A model generated the notes under the pieces. The model ran no database searches, was not told where the DNA came from, and worked only from the letters and a program-made list of their open reading frames with translations. From Sphingomonas sp. EC-HK361 (lineage in GTDB: Bacteria; Pseudomonadota; Alphaproteobacteria; Sphingomonadales; Sphingomonadaceae): a DNA stretch of 64,000 nt. A program made the position numbers and the translations under genes. The stretch is from positions 806,724 through 870,723 of the forward strand of contig NZ_LR701493.1 in assembly GCF_902498785.1 (NCBI RefSeq). The letters run 5' to 3'. Positions 53,620-64,000 of this stretch are shown in pieces; the stretch's first letter is position 1; every line of letters begins with the position of its first letter.

Positions 53620-56334
53620 CTAGAACGTCACGCCCAGCCCGATCTGGAACGAGGCGCCGACCTTGTAGAGGTTGTAATAGTTCCGGTTGTCGCCGACCTG
53701 CTGATATTCCTGATATTTCGTGCCGGTGATGTTGCGCGCCTCGAACTTCACGGTCGTATCGACGCCCGCGATGGTCAGGCCTTCGCGCGCCACGAAATCG
53801 AGGTGGAAGCCGGGAATTTCGTAGATGTCGGGCAGGCCGACCGCGCCGCGGCTCGTCACCCGCTTGCTGGCATAGGTGAGCAGGAAGGTCTGCTGCGACA
53901 GGCCACTCTTGTCCTCCAGTCCGAACTGCAGGTTGGCGATGTGATCCGACTGGCCGGTCAGCGGCGCCCCATCGCGGAAGAAGTTCGTGGCGGGCTGCGG
54001 CGTGGTGCCGAAGACGTTCACGATATCGCCGTCGCCGACTTTGATCTTCGACTTGGTGTAGGTGTAGTTCGCGATGAACACGCCGCGCCGCGTGCCCCAG
54101 AAGGGATCGCTGCCACCGCCGATGCCGGACAGGTCGAAATATTTCTGCAGCTCGAACTCGCCGCCATAGAGATTGGCCTTGGGGGCGTTTGCGAAGCTCG
54201 TCTGCGGCTGGTTGTCCGAAAAGCCGGTGAACGCCTCGATCGGGTTGTCGATGCGCTTGAAGAATCCGGCGAGCGAGACGCGCTGGTCCTTGGCGAAATA
54301 CCACTCCCACCGCGCTTCGGCGTTGTAGAGCTGGCTGTCGATGAGCAGCGGGTTGCCGCGATATTGACGGTTCGTTTCCGGATCATAATATTGCTGGAAG
54401 ATGAGTTCGCGGAACTGAGGCCGCGCGATCGTCTTCGATGCGTTGAGGCGGACCTGCATCTGCGGCGCGACCGTCCAGGTGAGCGTGGCGCCCGGCAGCC
54501 AATAGTCGCGGTTGATCCGGGTCGAGGCCAGCGAGTTGCTCGGCGTGGTGAACACGCGGGCGGGATCGACCGACTGCTCACCCTTTTCATAGCGCACGCC
54601 GAGATCGAGATCGAACGCATCGAACAGCGTCGCGCGGACCTTGGCATAGCCCGCCTGCGTCTTCAGCCGCGCGTTGAACGCGGGATCGGACTCGGTCGTC
54701 TCGACGAGGTTGATGTTGAACGCGTTGATGACCGATGGCTGGAGCAGCAGATCGGGGCGGAACAGATCGACCCCGTTCGGAAAGTTGCTCGGCGCGATGA
54801 ACTGGAATTCGCGGCGCGAGGAAAAGCGCTTCGTGTCGCTGAACGCCCAGCCGACCGTTGCCGTCACCTTGTCGAGGATCGGGTAGGAGAGATCGACCCC
54901 GGCGGAATACAGGTCCTCGTTCAGCTTGGAAAACGCGACCGACGCGCTGCCAAGCTGTCCGTTGTTCAGCCGGTTGACGAAATACTGGCCGAACGGATCG
55001 TTCGCGCGGTTGGTGCGAACATAGCCGTAGGACAGCTCGAACGGGGCATCGCGCTTCGTGTTGGCATAGCCGCCGCGCGTCTCCAGCTTGAAGTCGCCGA
55101 GCTTGAACTCGCCGGTGAACTGCGTGTCGAACAGCTGGCGCTGATACCAGGCGGTATCCTGTTCCAGGCGGGTGAATCCGCTCGTCGCCTCGAACCCCTG
55201 GCCCAGACGCGTCTGCTTCAGCGTATCGCGCACGAAGAGGTTGGTGACGCGAATCTTGTTCTCGTCCCATTCGAGGCCGAGCCCGAGCAGGCCGTTCACG
55301 ACGATACGGTTGTCGGTGATGACCCGCTGGAAATCGAGCTCCTTCTGGCTGAGGTCCAGCGTCGACGGCGTTTGCTGCGTCGTATCGCGGGTCTGCCACT
55401 TGTTGCTGATCCCGGCGGTCGCGATGACGCCGAGCAGCGCGCCGCCGACGTCGAACGACTTGCCGCCGGTGATGTTGCCGGTGAAGTTTGCGGGAAGCTG
55501 GCTGATCCGCTGCGCGATGCTGTTGCGACCGGTGACGATCTGGCTCGCGATCGCCTTGGTATCGACGGTGCCGTCACCGATCCGCGCACCGCTCTTGAAG
55601 AAGGCGTCGAGCGCGGGTGGCAGGCTGCGATTGCCGTTGTCGAAGCCGGTCCAGTCGGTCTTGCTGCCATAATAGGTGTAGCCGAGCCGGGCGGTCGTCT
55701 CGCTGTCGCCGCCGACCCCGCCCGAGATCGTCAGGAACGCGTCGCGCGGTGCTGCGATCGTGGTCAGGTTGATGACGCCGCCGCCGAATTCACCGGGGAA
55801 GTTTGCCGAATAGCTTTTCTGGACGAGGCTGGACGCGATGACATTGGTCGGGAAGATGTCGAGCGGGACGACGCGCTTGAGCGGTTCCGGGCTTGGCAGC
55901 GGCGAGCCGTTGAGGAGCGCGAGACTGTAGCGATCACCCAGCCCGCGGACGTAGACGAAGCCGTTACCGACGACGCTGAGGCCCGTCACGCGGGCGAGCG
56001 CGCCGGCGATATTGCCTTCGCCGGTGCGCGCGATATCGGCGGTCGACAGCACCGAGACGACCTGCGGCGAGGTGGCCTGCACATTGGCGGTGCGGCGACC
56101 GGTGACGACGATGTCGGCGCCGCCGGGAATGGAGACGTCAGGCGCCTGGTCCTGCGCGGCGGGAGCGGCGGTCTGATCGGCCGGCGTGCCCTGCGCCGTA
56201 TCGGTCGATTGCGGCGCGGGCTGGCCGCTGGGATTGGACGATGCGGTGTTCGTGGTCTGGGCGGCGGCGAGCGCCGGCATCACCAGCGCGGTGGAGACGA
56301 GTAGCAGGCCGGCAAGGCGCGACGGCTTGGTCAT
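53620..56334 (-). CDS. TonB-dependent receptor linked to the type II secretion locus
   Basis: 904 aa. Signal peptide LAGLLLVSTALVMPALAAAQ, then an unusually long Q/T/P/A-rich spacer (about 27-66) before the TonB-box-like ADIVVTGRR. Plug has GNGFVYVRGLGDRYSLALLNG, PSPEPLKRVVPLDIFPTNVI and SYSANFPGEFGGGVINLTT; long barrel ends YKVGASFQIGLGVTF. The substrate is unknown. It lies 77 bp downstream of the lipoprotein gene on the same strand, separated by a strong hairpin. The neighbourhood of a secretion system and Pho-box-like repeats suggests uptake of a phosphorus compound, as an inference only. Confidence 0.93.
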   Translation of the reverse strand: MTKPSRLAGLLLVSTALVMPALAAAQTTNTASSNPSGQPAPQSTDTAQGTPADQTAAPAAQDQAPDVSIPGGADIVVTGRRTANVQATSPQVVSVLSTADIARTGEGNIAGALARVTGLSVVGNGFVYVRGLGDRYSLALLNGSPLPSPEPLKRVVPLDIFPTNVIASSLVQKSYSANFPGEFGGGVINLTTIAAPRDAFLTISGGVGGDSETTARLGYTYYGSKTDWTGFDNGNRSLPPALDAFFKSGARIGDGTVDTKAIASQIVTGRNSIAQRISQLPANFTGNITGGKSFDVGGALLGVIATAGISNKWQTRDTTQQTPSTLDLSQKELDFQRVITDNRIVVNGLLGLGLEWDENKIRVTNLFVRDTLKQTRLGQGFEATSGFTRLEQDTAWYQRQLFDTQFTGEFKLGDFKLETRGGYANTKRDAPFELSYGYVRTNRANDPFGQYFVNRLNNGQLGSASVAFSKLNEDLYSAGVDLSYPILDKVTATVGWAFSDTKRFSSRREFQFIAPSNFPNGVDLFRPDLLLQPSVINAFNINLVETTESDPAFNARLKTQAGYAKVRATLFDAFDLDLGVRYEKGEQSVDPARVFTTPSNSLASTRINRDYWLPGATLTWTVAPQMQVRLNASKTIARPQFRELIFQQYYDPETNRQYRGNPLLIDSQLYNAEARWEWYFAKDQRVSLAGFFKRIDNPIEAFTGFSDNQPQTSFANAPKANLYGGEFELQKYFDLSGIGGGSDPFWGTRRGVFIANYTYTKSKIKVGDGDIVNVFGTTPQPATNFFRDGAPLTGQSDHIANLQFGLEDKSGLSQQTFLLTYASKRVTSRGAVGLPDIYEIPGFHLDFVAREGLTIAGVDTTVKFEARNITGTKYQEYQQVGDNRNYYNLYKVGASFQIGLGVTF

Positions 56335-56360
56335 GAAGACCCCCTTTGAAAAATCCGAAA

Positions 56361-56395
56361 GGGGCGGGGCGCGACCATCGCCGCACCCCGCCCCC
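56361..56395 (-). terminator. Hairpin between the lipoprotein and TonB receptor genes
   Basis: On the minus strand GGGGCGGGG pairs with CCCCGCCCC, followed by TTTCGGATTTTT and then the receptor's ribosome site (AAAGGGGG). It resembles a partial terminator and could lower receptor expression relative to the lipoprotein. Confidence 0.6.
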
Positions 56396-56411
56396 GTTCA
56401 ACAACCGACGA

Positions 56412-57986
56412 TCAGGTGGTGGGGAGCGAGGTGCAGCTGCTGCCCGAACCGAAGCTTGCGACCGAGCTGTCGCAGGTCCAGCCCTTGTACCAGGTGTCGT
56501 TCGCGTCCCGCACCGCGCCGACATAGGTCGTCGTGTCGAAGAACGCGTTGACCGTCTTCGCGTTGAATGCGGTCGCCGCGGCTTCGGTCGCGCCGTTGAT
56601 GAACAGGCTGGCAAGGGTCGGCGTGTAGGTGTCGCTGTTGCCGTTCGCGCCCGCACCGAAGATCGCCTGGGTCTGCGCGGCGGTGACGCCGTTGGTGCCC
56701 AGATACTTGGTCGATCCGCACTGCATGAGGACCGAGCGGAAGACGGGGGCGCCGAGTTCGTCGATCGATGCGTCCGCCGTGGTCGAGGCAGTCTGCGGAC
56801 GGCTGATGTTCAGGCACGGATAGTTCGGCGAGACGAGCAGGCCGTTATACAGGCCGTAATCGGTGCCGCCGCGCAGCAGGACTGCGGCTGCGTCCGGGCC
56901 GCCCGGCGAACGATACAGGAAGGTGAAGTTCACGACCTGCGTGTTCTGCCGCGGGGTATTGCCGTCCGCCGCGTTGTCCGAATCGGCTTCGATGATCGCG
57001 TCGCCGATCGAGGTGCGCTGCGCGACGATGGCATACTGGATGTTGGCCTTCACGCCGGTATCGGTGTCGAGATTGTCGTCCTCTGCGCCGACCGCGACGA
57101 AATACTTCATGTTCACGCGCCCGCCGAACATTTCGACCGCGTCGTCCGAGCTGTTGAACGACATGATGTGATCGAGCTGGGTGCCCGATCCGATGCCTTC
57201 GGTCGTCAGCGACTGAAGCTCGTTGTTCGCGGACAGGACATAGCCGGAATAACGGATCTGGACGTAGCTCATCTTGCCGCTGTTGTCGGCTGTCTGGGTG
57301 CCGCCGTAGATTGCGGGATCGACGGCGCCTTCGGTCTGGCGTTCGCACTGCGCGCTGCCCGGGGTCGCGGCCGGCGCGACGGTGCAGTCGGTGACGGGCG
57401 CGCGGCCCATCAGCACGACGCCGCCCCACTGGCCCGACGAATTGTCGTTGTTCAGCCCCAGGATGTTGTCGCGGCTGGTAAAGATGATCGGCTGGGTCGC
57501 GGTGCCGACCGCGTTGATCTGGTTGCCGCGGTTGACCGCCAGCCACGACACGCCGGTGCCGCCATAGACGATGACGCCCGGATCGATCGTCAGGACGACG
57601 TTGGTGCTGGTCGAGGTGGCGCCCTGATCGGTGCCGACATCGACGCGGCCGCCGAGCTGGTAGAGAAGCCCTGCGACCTTCGTCAGGCGAACGCTGGTGT
57701 TGATGCGCGCGGGCAGCGTGCAGACGCGGTAGGTGCCGGTCGGTCCGGTGATCGTGCCGGCGTCGGTCAGGCCCTGCGGATCGGCGATCGTCGGGCAGCC
57801 GGTGGCCGGCGTTACCAGCGATGCGGTCGGGGTCGGGGTCGGCGACGGCGCGGGAGTCGGTGCGGGATAGCTGATATTGACGTTGCCGCCGGTGCCGGGC
57901 GACGCGATGTCGTCGGCGCCGCAGCCGCCGAGCGCGAGGAGTGAAGTCGATACGATAAGCGCACGGCGCACGTTGAAACTACGCAT
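56412..57986 (-). CDS. Large lipoprotein with repeat-rich (beta-helix-like) body
   Basis: 524 aa. Lipobox LALGGC (Cys22), then a Pro/Thr linker PAPTPAPSPTPTPT (41-54). The body is rich in Asn, Gly, Ser and Thr with short strands (GVIVYGGTGVSWLAVNRGNQINAVGTATQPIIFTSRDN, GKMSYVQIRYSGYVLSANNELQSLT, SSDDAVEMFGGRVNMKYFVAVGAEDDNLD), suggesting a right-handed parallel beta-helix. C-terminal Cys residues may form disulfides. Its position beside gsp genes recalls Caulobacter ElpS, a lipoprotein exported by type II secretion under phosphate starvation; homology to ElpS was not tested. Pho-box-like repeats lie 111-172 bp upstream of its start. Confidence 0.8.
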   Translation of the reverse strand: MRSFNVRRALIVSTSLLALGGCGADDIASPGTGGNVNISYPAPTPAPSPTPTPTASLVTPATGCPTIADPQGLTDAGTITGPTGTYRVCTLPARINTSVRLTKVAGLLYQLGGRVDVGTDQGATSTSTNVVLTIDPGVIVYGGTGVSWLAVNRGNQINAVGTATQPIIFTSRDNILGLNNDNSSGQWGGVVLMGRAPVTDCTVAPAATPGSAQCERQTEGAVDPAIYGGTQTADNSGKMSYVQIRYSGYVLSANNELQSLTTEGIGSGTQLDHIMSFNSSDDAVEMFGGRVNMKYFVAVGAEDDNLDTDTGVKANIQYAIVAQRTSIGDAIIEADSDNAADGNTPRQNTQVVNFTFLYRSPGGPDAAAVLLRGGTDYGLYNGLLVSPNYPCLNISRPQTASTTADASIDELGAPVFRSVLMQCGSTKYLGTNGVTAAQTQAIFGAGANGNSDTYTPTLASLFINGATEAAATAFNAKTVNAFFDTTTYVGAVRDANDTWYKGWTCDSSVASFGSGSSCTSLPTT

Positions 57987-58096
57987 TTTTCCCGGTCTCC
58001 AGCCCTGAATGCCGACGCTGATGTCGGCCCCTGTTCGGCAAGGCCCCCGTGAGTCGTGCCCACGAAGCCTCCGATGGCCCGGTCCTAGGAACGCAA

Positions 58097-58158
58097 TGTT
58101 ACACGCAGCGGTGATTCCGGTGACGGAACGGTAACGAAACGGTGACGCTTATGTGACG
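58097..58158 (-). promoter_or_regulatory. Tandem 11-bp direct repeats, Pho-box-like
   Basis: On the plus strand GGTGACG at 58119, GGTAACG at 58130, GGTGACG at 58141 and TGTGACG at 58152 begin exactly 11 bp apart; TGTTACA at 58097 keeps the phase with one unit degenerate. Read on the minus strand the units are CGTCACA / CGTCACC / CGTTACC / CGTCACC. The 7+4 architecture is that of PhoB sites (CTGTCAT-type). They are upstream of the lipoprotein gene in its direction. Confidence 0.7.
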
Positions 58159-58174
58159 CCGTATCGGCGGCGGG

Positions 58175-58855
58175 CTATGCCCAGACCCGTTCGCGATACC
58201 ATTTGGTGATGACGTATTTCGTGCCGGCCCGCACCTTCATCCCCTGGTGGATCGTCGCCGGGTTCGGCGTGCCGTCCGCGCGCAGATTGTTCCACGCGAG
58301 AAGCTTGCCGGTTTCGGGCTGGACGATCTTGTCGATCGTCTTGAAGCGCGTCGCGCCGCCGGCTTCGGGCAGATTCAGATAGATCATCGCGGTCCAGGTG
58401 CGGTTTCCGGCGACCGAACAGTAGCGTGCGAAGTCGATGCCCTGCGGATCGAAATAGTCGGTATGGCCTTTGAACTCCTGCCCCACGGCATAGCGCTGTC
58501 CCTGGAGCGGCTCGCCATAAACTGGGTCGAGGCCGAGAAAATCCGCGATTCGCGCGTCGATCGCCGCGGCAACGGGGTCATCGGCGCGCAGATCACAGGT
58601 TTCGCTGGTGCGAAAGGCTGCGTCACCGTTGAAGTCGGACACGGTGGATGGGCGCCGTTCGGCATCGATTCGCTCCACGAGCGCGGCGCATTCATCGGTG
58701 CGGAGGAAGTCGCGCTTGATGAACAATGTCAGCTTCGGGCTGGGCACGCGCTGAATGCCGGGCTGCTGTAAAAGGTGTGTAACGACCGGCTCGGAAGGGT
58801 GGCCCGAGCCGTATGGGCGGGGTGACGGTTGGGTGGGTGGCAGGGCGTCGATCAT
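58175..58855 (-). CDS. 2-oxoglutarate/Fe(II) oxygenase, prolyl-4-hydroxylase type
   Basis: 226 aa from ATG 58855 (a GTG three codons upstream is possible). P4Hc-type double-stranded beta-helix: iron ligands His131 and Asp133 (GHTDYFD) and His203 (TIHQGMKVRAGTKYVITKW), with Lys213 for 2-oxoglutarate. Also TWTAMIYLNLPEAGGATRF. No signal peptide, so cytoplasmic. Bacterial members hydroxylate proline in proteins or peptides. The neighbouring lipoprotein and GspC both carry Pro-rich linkers, which are possible substrates (inference). It lies between two Pho-box-like regions. Confidence 0.88.
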   Translation of the reverse strand: MIDALPPTQPSPRPYGSGHPSEPVVTHLLQQPGIQRVPSPKLTLFIKRDFLRTDECAALVERIDAERRPSTVSDFNGDAAFRTSETCDLRADDPVAAAIDARIADFLGLDPVYGEPLQGQRYAVGQEFKGHTDYFDPQGIDFARYCSVAGNRTWTAMIYLNLPEAGGATRFKTIDKIVQPETGKLLAWNNLRADGTPNPATIHQGMKVRAGTKYVITKWYRERVWA

Positions 58856-58894
58856 GGCGTGCACGCTTATATCACCGCAGCCCCACGAGAAATA

Positions 58895-58923
58895 TTACAC
58901 AAGCCTGCAACGCCACTGTAACA
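58895..58923 (+). promoter_or_regulatory. Degenerate Pho-box-like repeats before gspC
   Basis: TTACACA at 58895, TGCAACG at 58906 and TGTAACA at 58917 begin at exact 11-bp intervals, in the gap between the divergent oxygenase and gspC starts, 41-69 bp upstream of the gspC ATG. Weaker than the array at 58097-58158. Confidence 0.5.
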
Positions 58924-58963
58924 TGGCGCTCATAGCGCGGGACCGCGGGGACGGGTCACTCGA

Positions 58964-59806
58964 ATGCGATTGAAGTTCGACGCCCGCACGCGGGCCATCT
59001 TCCGGCGGGTGCCGGTCATCAATGTCTATTCGCTGGCGGAACTCGCGCTGCTGGCGCTGCTTGCGCTCCAGACGGCGCGGCTGGTGTGGGCGGTGCTGAC
59101 CCCGGTATCGCCGCTCGGCGAATGGAAGCTCGCCGCGGTCGGTGCGCCCGGCTCGCCGGCGGACATCCTGAAGGGTTTCGATCCCTTCTTCCGCTCCGCA
59201 CAGGTCGCCGGCCCTTCCACCGTCACGTCATTGCAGCTGAAGCTGTTCGGCACGCGGATCGACGAGGCGATGGGCCGCGGGTCTGCGATCATCGCTGGGC
59301 CGGACGGGCTGCAGAAGAGCGTTGCGGTGGGCGAGGAGATCGTCCCCGGCGTGAAGCTGAAATCGGTCGCGTTCGACCATGTCGTCCTAGATCGCGGTGG
59401 CGCGGACGAGGATCTGTTCCTCGATCAGTCCGGCGGCGCGACCCCGGTTTCGCCCGATGCCGGCGCACCGTCCGCTGCCCCGCTGCCGGCCGATCCGTCC
59501 GCCCCGCCGGGAGGCGGCCCCGGTGTCAGCGTGCAGCAGCTCCAGTCGGATATCGGGTTCATCCCGCGGCTCGACGGCGGGCGGATCAGCGGGCTCGTGG
59601 TCCGGCCGCAAGGGACCGGAGCGACCTTCCGCAGCGCAGGGCTTCGCGACGGCGACATCATCACCGCGATCGGCGGCCGCCCGGTGACCGGGCAGGGCGA
59701 CCTCGACCGGGTGGCCGCGGATATGGCAAAGGGCGGCACGCTTTCCATCACGGTCGAACGCGGCGGCCAGACGCTGCCGATCGCCATCAGCATCAAGGCA
59801 CAATGA
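58964..59806 (+). CDS. gspC: Type II secretion inner-membrane protein GspC
   Basis: 280 aa. One N-terminal membrane helix (VYSLAELALLALLALQTARLVWAVLTPV). HR domain about residues 95-155 (TVTSLQLKLFGTRIDEAMGRGSAIIAGPDG, VGEEIVPGVKLKSVAFDHVVLDRGG). A Pro/Ala/Gly-rich linker (155-190), then a PDZ domain (LVVRPQGTGATFRSAGLRDGDIITAIGGRPVTG). It links the inner-membrane assembly platform to the GspD secretin. The ATG overlaps nothing upstream; its stop overlaps the gspD ATG by 4 bp. Confidence 0.92.
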   Translation: MRLKFDARTRAIFRRVPVINVYSLAELALLALLALQTARLVWAVLTPVSPLGEWKLAAVGAPGSPADILKGFDPFFRSAQVAGPSTVTSLQLKLFGTRIDEAMGRGSAIIAGPDGLQKSVAVGEEIVPGVKLKSVAFDHVVLDRGGADEDLFLDQSGGATPVSPDAGAPSAAPLPADPSAPPGGGPGVSVQQLQSDIGFIPRLDGGRISGLVVRPQGTGATFRSAGLRDGDIITAIGGRPVTGQGDLDRVAADMAKGGTLSITVERGGQTLPIAISIKAQ

Positions 59807-62007
59807 CCCGAAACCTTCTCATTCCGGCGGTCGCGCTCGTACTCGCCGCGCCTGCGATCGCGCAGACCACGCTCAACGTGCGAGACGCCGATATCCGCGC
59901 GTTCATCGCCGATGCCGCCAAGGTGACGGGGCGGACCTTCATCATCGACGCGCGCGTGCAGGGGAAGGTGACGGTCGTCACCGACCGGCCGCTCAGCCGC
60001 TCCGAATATTTCGAGGTCTTCCTGTCCACGCTGCGCGCCAACGGGCTGGTCGCGGTGCCGACCGGCAACGGCGCGCTGCGGGTGCAGCCGATCGATAACG
60101 CCGCGAGCCAGCCGAGCCGCGTCGGCGTGGCGGGGGCGGCGCGGAACAGCTTCGTGACCGAGATCGTCCGGCTGCGCGCGATCGATGCGCAGAGCGCTGT
60201 CGACACGGTGCGCCCGCTGGTGAGCGCGCAAGGATCGGTGACCGCGAACCGCGGCGGGAATTCGCTGGTCGTCGTCGATTTCGCCGACAATATCCGCCGC
60301 ATCCGCGAGGTGCTGCGCAAGATCGACGCGGACGGCAACGCGACGCGGGTGGTTGCGCTGAAGAACGCCAATGCCAAGGAAATCGCGGCCGCGCTCCAGT
60401 CGCTCGGTGGCGCTGGGGGCGGTGCGCCGGGGCAGCCCGCGGCGGCGGGCGGCGTGTCGGTCGTCGCGATCGACAGCTCCAATTCGGTTGCGCTCAGGGG
60501 TGATCCGTCGTCGGTCGCGCGGCTCGCGCAGGTGGCGCTGGAACTCGACCAGAAGGCCAAGAGCGGCACCGAGATCAAGGTCGTGTTCCTCGAGAATGCC
60601 GATGCCGGGCAGCTGCTGCCGGTGCTCCAGCAGCTTGTCGGGCAGCAGCCCGATGCGGTGCCGGAGCAGGCGCTGTCGCAGTCGAATTTCGGATCGAACG
60701 GGACGAACGGCAGCAATGGCGCCGGCCAGACCTTCGGGTCGCAGCGCAACCAGCCGCAGCCGCAGGCGACGCCGCAGACCGGCAATGCTCCCGCACAAGC
60801 CGCGATCACGACGCAGGGCGGGCGCACCGCGGCGGTCGTCACGCGATTTGCGGGCGCGAACGCGATCGTCATCGCGGCGCCTGCCGATATTCAGCGGCAA
60901 TTGACCGAAGTGATCCGCCAGCTCGACACGCGGCGCGAGCAGGTGCTGGTCGAGGCGATCGTTGCCGAAGTTTCGGATTCCACCGTGCGGCGACTGGGCG
61001 CGCAGTTCCTGCTTGGCAACCTGAGCGGCGGCGCGTTCGCGGCATCGACGTTCAGCAATTCGGCGCCCAACATTCTCCAGATCGCCGGCGCGATCGGCGC
61101 GCGGTCGCTGGCCACGACGACGACCACGACCAATGGCAACGTGACGACGACGGGCACCGATACGACCATCAGCGATCAGCTCGCACAGTCGGCGATCCAG
61201 TCGATCCTTTCGAGCAGCGGCGGGTTCGGCGGGTTCGGGACCAAGATCGGCGACACGATCTTCGGTGCGATCATCAATGCGGTGAAAAGCGACACGACGT
61301 CGAACCTGCTCCAGGTGCCGCACCTCGTCACGCTGGACAACCAGGAAGCGCACAGCCTGGTCGGGCAGGAAATCCCGATCACGACCGGCCAGGCGCTCAG
61401 CAACAATTTCGACAATGCGTTTCGCACCACCCAGCGCGAGAATGTGGGCATCGAGCTGACGGTGCGCCCGCAGGTCAATTCCAGCGGCACGGTGAAGCTG
61501 AACCTGCGTCTGGAAGTCAGCTCGATCGCGGGGCCGGTGTCGAGCGACAACAGCGACCTCATCCTCAACAAGCGCGAGGTCGAGACGGTGCGCACCGTCG
61601 ACGACGGCCAGATCGCGGTCATCAGCGGCTTGCTCGACGATAATGAGCGCCGGACGATCGAGAAGATTCCGCTGCTCGGCGATATCCCGGTCCTCGGCAA
61701 CCTGTTCAAGTCGAAGGCGAAAGAGCGGACGAAGACCAATCTGATGATCTTCATTCGTCCCACGATCATCCGCAATGCCGATGACAGCCGCAAGATCACC
61801 GAGCAGCGTTACGGCTATCTGCGGCTTCAGCAGGGGCTGGCCGATCCGACGCGCGAGCCGACGATCGACGAGTTGATCCGCAACTATATGGGCGCAGCAC
61901 CGCCGATCCCCTCGGCACCGTTGCCAGGCAATATCGAGGACCCGCGGGTCAACGTGCCGATCGTCACGACGACGAGCACCGTGCGGGTGAAGCGGCGGAA
62001 GCAATGA
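59803..62007 (+). CDS. gspD: Type II secretion secretin GspD
   Basis: 734 aa. Signal peptide LLIPAVALVLAAPAIAQ. N0 domain (LNVRDADIRAFIADAAKVTGRTFIIDARVQGKVTVV), N1-N3 repeats with KNANAKEIAAALQSLG and LENADAGQLLPVLQQLVGQQPDAV; an N/Q/G-rich insert follows. The secretin core has VLVEAIVAEVSDSTVRRLGAQF, LVGQEIPITTGQALS, GIELTVRPQVNSSGTVKLNL and the closing VISGLLDDNERRTIEKIPLLGDIPVLGNLFKS. It forms the outer-membrane channel. The start is set by homology; the upstream frame is antisense-like noise inside gspC. ATGA overlaps on both ends. Confidence 0.96.
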   Translation: MTRNLLIPAVALVLAAPAIAQTTLNVRDADIRAFIADAAKVTGRTFIIDARVQGKVTVVTDRPLSRSEYFEVFLSTLRANGLVAVPTGNGALRVQPIDNAASQPSRVGVAGAARNSFVTEIVRLRAIDAQSAVDTVRPLVSAQGSVTANRGGNSLVVVDFADNIRRIREVLRKIDADGNATRVVALKNANAKEIAAALQSLGGAGGGAPGQPAAAGGVSVVAIDSSNSVALRGDPSSVARLAQVALELDQKAKSGTEIKVVFLENADAGQLLPVLQQLVGQQPDAVPEQALSQSNFGSNGTNGSNGAGQTFGSQRNQPQPQATPQTGNAPAQAAITTQGGRTAAVVTRFAGANAIVIAAPADIQRQLTEVIRQLDTRREQVLVEAIVAEVSDSTVRRLGAQFLLGNLSGGAFAASTFSNSAPNILQIAGAIGARSLATTTTTTNGNVTTTGTDTTISDQLAQSAIQSILSSSGGFGGFGTKIGDTIFGAIINAVKSDTTSNLLQVPHLVTLDNQEAHSLVGQEIPITTGQALSNNFDNAFRTTQRENVGIELTVRPQVNSSGTVKLNLRLEVSSIAGPVSSDNSDLILNKREVETVRTVDDGQIAVISGLLDDNERRTIEKIPLLGDIPVLGNLFKSKAKERTKTNLMIFIRPTIIRNADDSRKITEQRYGYLRLQQGLADPTREPTIDELIRNYMGAAPPIPSAPLPGNIEDPRVNVPIVTTTSTVRVKRRKQ

Positions 62008-63545
62008 TGATCCGGCCGGGTTCCGTGGTGGACGAAGAGGGGGCGGCCGCGGCTGAGCCGGTCCTCGCGCATCCGTTGCCGATCCTCCCCTATATCTTTG
62101 CGCGCAAGTTCGGCGTGGTGCTCGACGGCGAGCGCGTCGCGATGCGCGACGGGGCCGATCCCAAGGTGCTGATCGAGGTGCGCCGCTTTCTCGAACGCCC
62201 GTTCGACGTCACCTTCGTGGAGGCGACGGCGTTCGATCGGCTGTTGTCGGATGCCTATGCGATGGACGGCCAGGCAAACGCGCTCGCCGCAGTCGGGATG
62301 GGCGACGAGCTGGACAGTCTCGCGGGCGATCTGCCGACTGCGGAGGACCTGCTCGACACCGCCGACGATGCGCCGGCGATCCGGCTCATCAACGGCGTGA
62401 TCGCGGACGCGGCGCGCAACGGCGTGTCGGATATTCATATCGAGCCCTACGAAAGCGGCCTCGTCGTGCGGATGCGGATCGACGGGGTGCTGCGCGAGAC
62501 GCTCCGGATGCCGCCGCATGTCGCGCCCGTGGTCGTAAGCCGTGTGAAGGTGATGGCGCGGCTCGACATCGCCGAACGCCGCGTGCCGCAGGACGGGCGG
62601 ATGGGGCTGACGCTCGGTGGCAAGCTGCTCGACGTGCGCGTCTCGACGCTCCCCAGCCGCGCGGGTGAACGCGTGGTTCTGCGCATTCTTGACAAGGATA
62701 ATGCGGGGATCGATCTCGACGCGCTCGGCATGGCGCCGGCGATGCACGCGCTGCTCGACGGCGCGGTGCACGAGCCCAACGGCATCGTGCTGGTGACCGG
62801 CCCGACCGGCAGCGGCAAGACGACGACGCTCTACGCGGCGCTGCGCCTGCTGAACGACGGCAGCCGCAACATCCTTACGGTCGAGGACCCGGTGGAGTAT
62901 GCGGTCGACGGGGTCGGGCAGACGCAGGTCAACGCCAAGGTCGGGCTGACCTTCGCGGCGGGGCTGCGCGCGATCCTGCGGCAGGACCCCGACGTGGTGA
63001 TGGTCGGCGAAATCCGCGACCGCGAAACCGCCGAGATTGCGGTGCAGGCATCGCTCACCGGGCATCTGGTGCTCTCCACCGTCCACACCAACGACGCGGT
63101 CGGCGCGATCACGCGGATGCGCGACATGAAGGTCGAGCCGTTCCTGCTCGCCTCCACCCTGCGCGCGGTGATCGCGCAGCGGCTGGTGCGGCGGCTGTGC
63201 CCGAATTGCCGCAAGCCGGTGAAGGCGGGGGAGGGCGTCGCCGCGCTCCTCGGGATTGCGGACGATGTGACGGTGTACGAGCCGGTCGGCTGCGACCAGT
63301 GCGGGCGCACGGGCTTCAAGGGGCGGATCGGCGTGTTCGAGGCGGTACGCGTCGATGAGACGATCCGCCGGCTCATCAACGAGGGCGGCGACGAAAGCGC
63401 GATCGCGGCGCATGCGTTTGCGCGCGGCGATACACTGGCGGATGCGGCGAGGCGGCTGGTGGAGAGCGGGCAGACGACGGCCGAGGAAGCGGTGCGTGTT
63501 TCGCGGCGCGATGCGATGGATGTGGCGGAGGTTGTGGATGCTTAG
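62004..63545 (+). CDS. gspE: Type II secretion ATPase GspE
   Basis: 513 aa. N-terminal GspL-binding region, then the secretion ATPase: Walker A GPTGSGKT (266-273), Asp box ILTVEDPVEYAVDG, Walker B DPDVVMVGEIRDRETA and His box STVHTNDA. Tetracysteine zinc motif Cys399-Cys402 (CPNC) and Cys430-Cys433 (CDQC) typical of GspE. Hexameric cytoplasmic motor for pseudopilus assembly. Followed by a family-A repeat before gspF. Confidence 0.96.
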   Translation: MMIRPGSVVDEEGAAAAEPVLAHPLPILPYIFARKFGVVLDGERVAMRDGADPKVLIEVRRFLERPFDVTFVEATAFDRLLSDAYAMDGQANALAAVGMGDELDSLAGDLPTAEDLLDTADDAPAIRLINGVIADAARNGVSDIHIEPYESGLVVRMRIDGVLRETLRMPPHVAPVVVSRVKVMARLDIAERRVPQDGRMGLTLGGKLLDVRVSTLPSRAGERVVLRILDKDNAGIDLDALGMAPAMHALLDGAVHEPNGIVLVTGPTGSGKTTTLYAALRLLNDGSRNILTVEDPVEYAVDGVGQTQVNAKVGLTFAAGLRAILRQDPDVVMVGEIRDRETAEIAVQASLTGHLVLSTVHTNDAVGAITRMRDMKVEPFLLASTLRAVIAQRLVRRLCPNCRKPVKAGEGVAALLGIADDVTVYEPVGCDQCGRTGFKGRIGVFEAVRVDETIRRLINEGGDESAIAAHAFARGDTLADAARRLVESGQTTAEEAVRVSRRDAMDVAEVVDA

Positions 63546-63554
63546 GCGCGACCT

Positions 63555-63662
63555 GCTCCCCTCCCTGAAAGGGAGGGGTTGGGGGTGGGTTGGTCCGCGA
63601 GGGAGCGTCGCGTCTGGCCCCCGGCGAGCCCACCCCCACCCCCTCCCTTTCAGGGAGGGGAG
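63555..63662. repeat. Intergenic inverted repeat unit (family A) within the gsp operon
   Basis: Left arm 63555-63588 (CTCCCCTCCCTGAAAGGGAG with GGGGGTGGG) and right arm about 63629-63662, near-perfect complements, with a 40-nt core. The right arm ends GGGAGGGGAG, 2 nt before the gspF TTG start, so it also supplies the ribosome-binding site. Confidence 0.88.
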
Positions 63663-63664
63663 AC

Positions 63665-64000
63665 TTGCCTGACTTCGATTACCTCGCGATCGACACCCGC
63701 GGCAACGAGACGCGCGGACATGTCGCCGCCGACAGCATCGATGCGGCGCGCAGCACGCTCGATCGCAAGCGCCTTTACGTCGTGCGGATCGAACCCGGTT
63801 CGGCGCCCGCCACCAAGGGCCGGCCGCTGTTCGGGCTGCAACTCGGCCGCGCGAAGATGTCGGCCAAGCAGCTGACGCTCTTCACCCGCCAGCTCGCGAC
63901 GCTCAACCGTGTCTCGCCGCTGGAAGAATCGCTGCGCACGATCACGCGCCAGACCGAGCAGGAAAGCGTCCGCGCGATCGTATCCACGGTCCATGCCGGC
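63665..64000 (+). CDS. gspF: Type II secretion inner-membrane protein GspF (5' part)
   Basis: 112 codons from TTG 63665 to the window end, still open. The protein starts PDFDYLAIDTRGNETRGHVAADSIDAARSTLDRKRLYVVRIEP and continues SAKQLTLFTRQLATLNRVSPLEESLRTI, typical of the N-terminal cytoplasmic half of GspF. The GGAGG in the flanking repeat lies 6 nt upstream. The remaining pseudopilin and platform genes should follow outside the window. Confidence 0.92.
   Translation, partial: MPDFDYLAIDTRGNETRGHVAADSIDAARSTLDRKRLYVVRIEPGSAPATKGRPLFGLQLGRAKMSAKQLTLFTRQLATLNRVSPLEESLRTITRQTEQESVRAIVSTVHAG

Follow-up and report, generated by a model that had tools for sequence, protein, structure and literature searches.

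The locus analyzed here lies in a 64,000-nucleotide stretch of DNA from Sphingomonas sp. EC-HK361 (contig NZ_LR701493.1, positions 806,724 to 870,723; hereafter the window). It carries the genes of an elpS-type surface lipoprotein (524 amino acids (aa), 56412..57986, minus strand) and of P4H-A, a prolyl 4-hydroxylase-like 2-oxoglutarate (2OG)-Fe(II) oxygenase (229 aa, 58175..58864, minus strand). The former was recognized from its open reading frame, its lipobox and homologues with the same neighbours, and the latter from PF13640 and matches to prolyl 4-hydroxylases (P4Hs) in the PDB. Behind the lipobox (LGGC, with Cys22), the lipoprotein continues with GADDIASPG, the tether PAPTPAPSPTPTPT and a predicted beta-helix domain. 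The tether (residues 41-54, 57825..57866, minus strand) is an alternating X-Pro repeat, as found in hydroxyproline-rich glycoproteins (HRGPs), and is the predicted hydroxylation site, judging from its sequence and from the comparison of tethers with P4H. Our results suggest that P4H-A is probably a dedicated enzyme hydroxylating this tether, within a locus that is the sphingomonad version of the known Caulobacter ElpS locus plus a prolyl hydroxylase. The lipoprotein, receptor and type II secretion system (T2SS) of such a locus are already known, and the link between hydroxylase and tether is new.

Association of P4H-A with the alternating-proline tether

For the comparison of tethers, 150 ElpS places were fetched among the matches listed, and the sequence following the lipobox could be read in 178 of 185 loci but not in the other 7. 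The count of 162 genomes was made after removal of L003 (frame break), L099 (tether cut by the contig end), second copies in a genome, L029 (a distant, two-domain frame with no P4H and a tether that does not alternate), and L011, L023 and L031-L035, whose genomes lay outside the P4H search. The tether classes were fixed after about 65 tethers, and P[AST]P motifs were counted in a fixed 37-residue stretch. Two further genomes, with P4H scores in the intermediate range and alternating tethers, were excluded from the tests.

The tether type followed the presence of the enzyme. In the 126 genomes with P4H-A, the tether was alternating in 117, poly-proline in 4 and of another type in 4, with one more alternating tether in a genome with a partial P4H. 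The 34 genomes without P4H-A comprised 21 with poly-proline, 10 with alternating and 3 with other tethers, and single genomes among them carried TNPTNP, TTPTTP, NPNPNP or Gly/Asp runs. The median number of P[AST]P motifs was 5.5 with P4H-A (n = 126) versus 0 without it (n = 34) (Mann-Whitney p = 1.3e-11, ignoring kinship), and at least four motifs were present in 108/126 and 7/34 genomes, respectively.

Such a pattern might also come from shared ancestry or codon-repeat drift with no enzyme-substrate link, which would leave a known locus beside an unrelated oxygenase gene. On the tree, a few clades supplied much of the raw count; proline repeats slip easily, and one pair test, given below, was borderline. 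The tree used for the pair tests was built with FastTree on the ElpS domain (last 455 residues; 8 of the 162 rows include 1-9 residues of the tether end) and showed 18 state changes for P4H and 11 for the tether. Over 18 pairs independent in the phylogeny, the bearer of P4H-A had more P[AST]P motifs in 14.7 and fewer in 3.0 (mean of 300 pairings), and the sign test had a median p of 0.0075 (5-95% range 0.004-0.031), which speaks against ancestry alone. Furthermore, the stricter treekit test, restricted to starred branches, gave 5.7 pairs in the same direction, 0.0 in the other and 4.3 with no difference among 10 tether-differing pairs (median p 0.031). Only 18 of the 93 genomes having both places among the matches listed had P4H-A no more than 10 kb from elpS, yet the enzyme predicted the tether, so chromosomal linkage is not the cause. 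In addition, GspD on the same genomes had no such link to the tether, and a P4H gene adjoins elpS in a second order, Caulobacterales. Ancestry or drift therefore appears quite improbable.

The secretin of the T2SS was compared with the tether in those genomes of the 298 set whose tether is alternating or poly-proline (n = 137). Among GspD holders, the counts of alternating and poly-proline tethers were 32 and 0 with P4H-A and 3 and 10 without it; among genomes without GspD, they were 74 and 4 with P4H-A and 5 and 9 without it. GspD had no effect on the tether within either P4H class (p 0.32 and 0.68), and P4H had one within both GspD classes (p 9e-8 and 1e-6). These stratified counts ruled out the T2SS as a hidden cause of tether type. 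A proteome-wide proline habit was also considered. DNA runs coding for poly-proline were found, counting overlapping matches, in 41 of 41 genomes (17 with a poly-proline tether and no P4H-A, and 24 with P4H-A). Since the pattern was present in genomes of both kinds, a general preference of the proteome does not by itself explain the tether switch, and this candidate was set aside.

A further variant of the alternating-proline tether, PGPTPGPTP, was seen in second ElpS-type copies (L179 and L181) of two P4H-A genomes, G035 and G114.

Distribution of ElpS, P4H-A and GspD in the family

The three components were searched in 298 genomes of the family with thresholds of E <=1e-30 for ElpS, E <=1e-100 for close GspD and E <1e-68 for P4H-A, with one partial P4H-A added by hand. 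The P4H-A cut-off was placed at a score gap seen in the data; the bearers include G007, whose match has an in-frame stop, and the partial G008, and divergent copies may escape these thresholds. ElpS was detected in 208 genomes, GspD in 117 and P4H-A in 192. ElpS occurred together with P4H-A in 163 genomes and with GspD in 99, P4H-A with GspD in 74, and all three in 71. The Fisher tests, which ignore kinship, gave 6e-14 for P4H-A and ElpS, 5e-6 for ElpS and GspD, and 0.80 for P4H-A and GspD. P4H-A thus follows ElpS and not the T2SS. The informative member of the set is the hydroxylase, which the preliminary description had listed among the added parts.

The preliminary description had proposed that the four parts form a single module for secretion and uptake, under phosphate control, with the T2SS exporting the lipoprotein. 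In its favour, ElpS and GspD co-occurred above chance (99 of 208 ElpS genomes), and the Caulobacter PhoB regulon has been reported to include the T2SS (PMC11208175). The expected joint occurrence of its parts was, however, seen in 71/298 genomes only, close GspD was absent from 109 of the 208 ElpS genomes, and no conserved PHO-like boxes were found upstream of gspC or P4H. Moreover, Caulobacter ElpS is described as reaching the surface without the T2SS, which serves its release (PMC2996285), contrary to the proposed export. For the same reason, unchanged surface localization in the absence of GspD would not count against the proposed module. The co-occurrence counts ruled out an obligate four-part module, and a module of the proposed kind in any form seems very unlikely.

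When P4H was found away from elpS, 17 of 20 neighbourhoods, chosen for that position, had no gsp gene. The counts of P4H next to gspD are a lower bound, resting on 17 GspD places. P4H-A genes away from elpS and gsp (L186-L198 and L203-L205) often shared a conserved neighbourhood, with frames that by eye resemble BamA, OmpH/Skp, FabZ and RseP.

Properties of P4H-A

A phmmer comparison of P4H-A with solved structures gave prolyl 4-hydroxylases as the nearest matches, with E values of 5e-18 for 3itq and 5hv0, which we take to be the Bacillus anthracis enzyme, and 1e-12 for 2jig and 3gze, presumably Chlamydomonas P4H-1. The algal P4H-1 serves hydroxyproline-rich glycoproteins with Ser-Pro repeats. 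Like these low-mass P4Hs, P4H-A has a single catalytic domain with the His-x-Asp...His...Lys arrangement; what sets it apart is its genomic association with a surface lipoprotein of bacteria that has an alternating-proline tether. The 2-His-1-Asp iron site (His134-Asp136-His206) and the 2OG-binding Lys216 were kept in all 55 sequences compared. In the tree of these sequences, a branch with support 99* parted P4H-A and the elpS-linked P4Hs of Caulobacterales from the paralogue P4H-B, and one further Caulobacterales P4H fell on the P4H-B side. P4H-A alone was supported at 87 (55 rows; the tool warns of long branches). No signal peptide was evident in P4H-A by eye; therefore, the enzyme would act before Sec export.

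To our knowledge, protein targets have been identified for few prolyl hydroxylases of bacteria, and EF-Tu is one such target. P4H-A might likewise act on something else, such as EF-Tu or other proline-rich surface or T2SS proteins, with the ElpS tether as one target or an incidental one. Pseudomonas PPHD, a bacterial enzyme of the 2OG prolyl hydroxylase type with a protein substrate, hydroxylates EF-Tu according to a review (PMC4543633). It is related to the hypoxia-inducible factor (HIF) prolyl hydroxylases, in which it differs from P4H-A, beside which it is set here by description (PMC4543633). P4H-A adjoins gspC in several sphingomonads, Pro/Ala-rich stretches also occur in the sequences of GspC and of the receptor N-terminus, and ElpS was not detected at threshold in 29 of the 192 P4H-A genomes. 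However, the presence of P4H-A tracked ElpS and its tether rather than GspD, the P4H genes of the Caulobacterales loci L236-L239 adjoin elpS, and a universal substrate such as EF-Tu would predict no tether type. We therefore consider another main target unlikely, though the least improbable of the alternatives.

Comparison with Caulobacterales

An ElpS homologue (E <=1e-40) was found in 115 of 150 Caulobacterales genomes and a P4H (E <=1e-35) in 6. Four of these six P4H genes lay immediately upstream of elpS (L236-L239), in the order P4H, elpS, receptor, gspC, gspD, with one direction throughout. The tethers of the four ElpS proteins were PAPAPVTPPPTTPPPPT, PAPTPTTPTPTTPTPTTPTP, PPPTTTPPPTTPPTTPPPT and PPPTVSPPPTSPPPTSPPP, all proline-rich. 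Among the 27 Caulobacterales loci without P4H, 23 were readable; three had TTP or TAP repeats, and the rest were mainly glycine-rich by eye. Four of the 30 Caulobacterales tether rows (L210 and L212-L214) were left uncounted.

In another group of Caulobacterales loci (L222-L224, L227, L229 and L232-L234), ElpS was encoded by one frame of about 930 codons that holds the domain twice in tandem, next to one TonB receptor.

Relationship to the Caulobacter ElpS locus

In Caulobacter, elpS (cc0170) is followed by a TonB receptor gene (cc0171) and gspC-N (cc0172-cc0184), and a similar arrangement has been stated for Sphingomonas alaskensis, Xanthomonas campestris and Hyphomonas (Le Blastier et al. 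2010; PMC2996285). ElpS is made there on phosphate starvation; its release needs the T2SS, probably via a secreted protease, and involves cleavage before residue 38, behind the lipobox Cys20 (PMC2996285). The parallel with Caulobacter drawn in the preliminary description is thus near literal, since the gene set is the published one and a sphingomonad was already listed. In the window, the lipoprotein with its lipobox, the TonB receptor and gspC likewise stand side by side, and PHO-like repeats at elpS suggest control of the phosphate type. The window differs in its added prolyl hydroxylase and in that elpS and the receptor point away from gspC. Furthermore, its tether is of proline, whereas the Caulobacterales tethers read were mostly glycine-rich. 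The window lipoprotein was set beside cc0170 by gene order and the published description.

Scanning genome contigs with the window lipoprotein as query yielded 35 loci. The receptor lay directly downstream of elpS in all 30 loci L001-L030; in the five most distant loci it was kilobases away, upstream, or not found. In seven loci with all parts (L006, L015, L017, L020, L026, L027 and L030), elpS and the receptor gene run towards the P4H gene, which stands divergent from gspC (elpS> receptor> <P4H gspC>). Relative to these seven, the elpS-receptor pair is inverted in the window, so that P4H, elpS and receptor all have the same direction. L004 shares this direction, and no gsp match was found in its 21.6 kb.

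Distant homologues of the ElpS domain (29-34% identity) occurred in L031-L034 and L035, from Bacteriovoracia-type metagenome-assembled genomes and Flaviaesturariibacter. The loci L031-L033 and L035 also showed a match to a TonB receptor some kilobases away at most.

The surface lipoprotein InvL of Acinetobacter, one of those depending on the T2SS and GspN, likewise combines a lipoprotein with a T2SS and has a sorting motif just behind the lipobox (PMC12802150). In that case, the T2SS carries the lipoprotein across the outer membrane (PMC12802150), for which Caulobacter ElpS does not need it.

Phosphate control of elpS

Upstream of elpS, four PHO-box-like half-sites with an exact spacing of 11 bp (58120..58157, minus strand) read GTGAC, GTAAC, GTGAC and GTGAC at 58120, 58131, 58142 and 58153. 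They were scored against a half-site of the GTRAC type, which we take to be the PHO consensus. The four-half-site score was reached by 0 of 1000 dinucleotide shuffles and equalled by 4 of the 679 overlapping window stretches. Two half-sites 11 bp apart, reading with transcription, were present in 81 of the 162 elpS upstream regions, including that of the window. Against transcription, the pattern occurred in 11/162; shuffles of the elpS upstream regions had a mean of 0.8 and a maximum of 3, and the background was 63 of 5911 stretches of 300 bp. Other spacings between 7 and 17 bp were seen in at most 5 of the 162 regions, except for 8 bp (43) and 9 bp (29). These two spacings, an unusual layout, far exceeded the shuffles.

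A second repeat, between P4H and gspC (CTGCAAC-N4-CTGTAAC, 58905..58922, plus strand), was weaker. With a looser score, the 99-bp gap between the two genes gave p values against shuffles of 0.014 for two half-sites and 0.002 for three, the only result that favours this repeat; its two-half-site score was matched by 16 of 1279 window stretches, and the gap failed the stricter pattern. No conserved PHO-like box was found upstream of gspC, where the pattern occurred in 2 of 12 regions, nor upstream of P4H genes adjoining gsp (0 of 10 forward, 1 reverse) or located elsewhere (0 of 18). The pattern being conserved upstream of elpS and not of gspC or P4H, the conserved signal belongs to elpS. Thus, of the two 11-bp repeats in the preliminary description, the one upstream of the lipoprotein gene stood and that of gspC was not conserved; phosphate control was likewise supported for elpS by its upstream pattern, consistent with the PhoB regulon of Caulobacter (PMC11208175), and remained unsupported for gspC and P4H. 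The signal at elpS alone agrees with the constitutive T2SS and induced elpS of the 2010 Caulobacter study (PMC2996285), though the regulon paper places the T2SS under PhoB (PMC11208175).

Proposed role of tether hydroxylation

At low phosphate, PhoB would most likely turn on elpS. ElpS would be lipidated and surface-bound and would work with its dedicated TonB receptor, and the neighbouring T2SS may serve secretion or release without being obligatory. P4H-A would 4-hydroxylate the prolines of the (Ala/Ser/Thr-Pro)n tether in the cytoplasm, before Sec export. The tether would join the lipid anchor to the beta-helix domain and, once modified, may form an extended polyproline-II rod, possibly glycosylated and possibly resistant to the protease that frees ElpS. 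In plants and algae, hydroxyproline can be glycosylated, and polyproline-II helices contain this residue (PMC11015965). Lineages without P4H-A would mostly use enzyme-free tethers, namely poly-proline, TTP, TNP or NP repeats, or glycine. Poly-proline would give the same shape without an enzyme, which fits the replacement of the tether where P4H-A is absent.

Several observations weigh against the tether as the dedicated substrate of P4H-A. In the treekit test, 12 P4H-differing pairs gave 5.3 in the same direction, 0.1 in the other and 6.6 with no difference, with a borderline median p of 0.0625. An alternating tether persists in ten genomes that lack P4H-A, and poly-proline is found in four that have it; some absences of P4H-A may reflect incomplete assemblies. 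The thresholds and tether classes were set after part of the data had been seen. The 29 P4H-A genomes without detected ElpS mean that other substrates exist or that ElpS was missed, and no conserved PHO box stood upstream of P4H in the regions compared. In Caulobacterales, two of the six P4H genes had no elpS within the 12-13 kb fetched, the tethers of L236-L239 (PTPTT, PPPTT and PPPTS types) are not strictly alternating, and these four cases are probably near kin that represent one event.

With these points taken into account, we lean towards the broader proposal that Alphaproteobacteria build HRGP-like, hydroxyproline-rich tethers, in which P4H-A modifies a linker that evolves with gain and loss of the enzyme, the modification setting the stiffness or glycosylation of the tether or the release of ElpS by protease. 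Some bacteria may thus make hydroxyproline surface tethers recalling the alternating-proline repeats of plant cell walls. None of the titles and abstract openings searched connected ElpS, or the tether of a lipoprotein, with a prolyl hydroxylase of bacteria. The comparative signal points to the enzyme, the protein and even the residues, so that a hydroxyproline-rich protein on a bacterial surface can be put to a direct test. If the proposal is true, a theme of plant and algal cell walls extends to bacteria, and ElpS, which is cut near the tether on release in Caulobacter, would have an extra control step.

Other features of the window

Family scans, structure matches and, for the lipoprotein, the open reading frame with its lipobox confirmed the TonB receptor, the 524-aa lipoprotein, the prolyl-hydroxylase-type 2OG oxygenase and the divergent gspC-D-E genes of the preliminary description, whose observation was on the whole partly confirmed and whose interpretation was partly supported. 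The TonB-dependent receptor (904 aa, 53620..56334, minus strand) is the cc0171-type partner of ElpS, with the Pfam domains Plug and TonB_dep_Rec_b-barrel; it scored 165.5 bits against TIGR01782, below the cut-off of 310 bits. On the plus strand, gspC (58964..59806) matched PF11356 (T2SSC), and both the secretin GspD and the ATPase GspE of the T2SS were present. The gspD gene (59803..62007) scored 536 bits with TIGR02517 (cut-off 351), and gspE (62004..63545) was above the Pfam cut-off for PF00437 and reached 621 bits with TIGR02533 versus a cut-off of 630.

No curated family for the lipoprotein was found in the Pfam or NCBIfam scans. Its AlphaFold model (m145a6288a713) had a mean predicted local distance difference test (pLDDT) score of 85.6 and consisted mostly of strands, with residues 31-54 below pLDDT 50. 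Foldseek matches were weak (best E 1.4e-3, none <=0.001) and mainly to beta-helix enzymes and tailspikes. The beta-helix assignment of the preliminary description was therefore supported by the model with its weak matches of this kind; a catalytic role drawn from the fold was dropped.

The open frame at the place of gspF (63590..64000, plus strand) is a candidate by position, with its start codon unsettled and its end cut by the window; the remainder of a gspC-N operon would lie beyond the window. Between gspE and this frame, an inverted repeat, cctccctgaaagggagggg...ccctccctttcagggagg (about 63556-63664), resembled by eye an element of the repetitive extragenic palindromic type or a terminator. 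Finally, an IS30-family transposase gene (NF033563, 52356-53354, minus strand) lies about 270 bp past the end of the TonB receptor gene, and this element could have helped to turn the elpS-receptor pair round.

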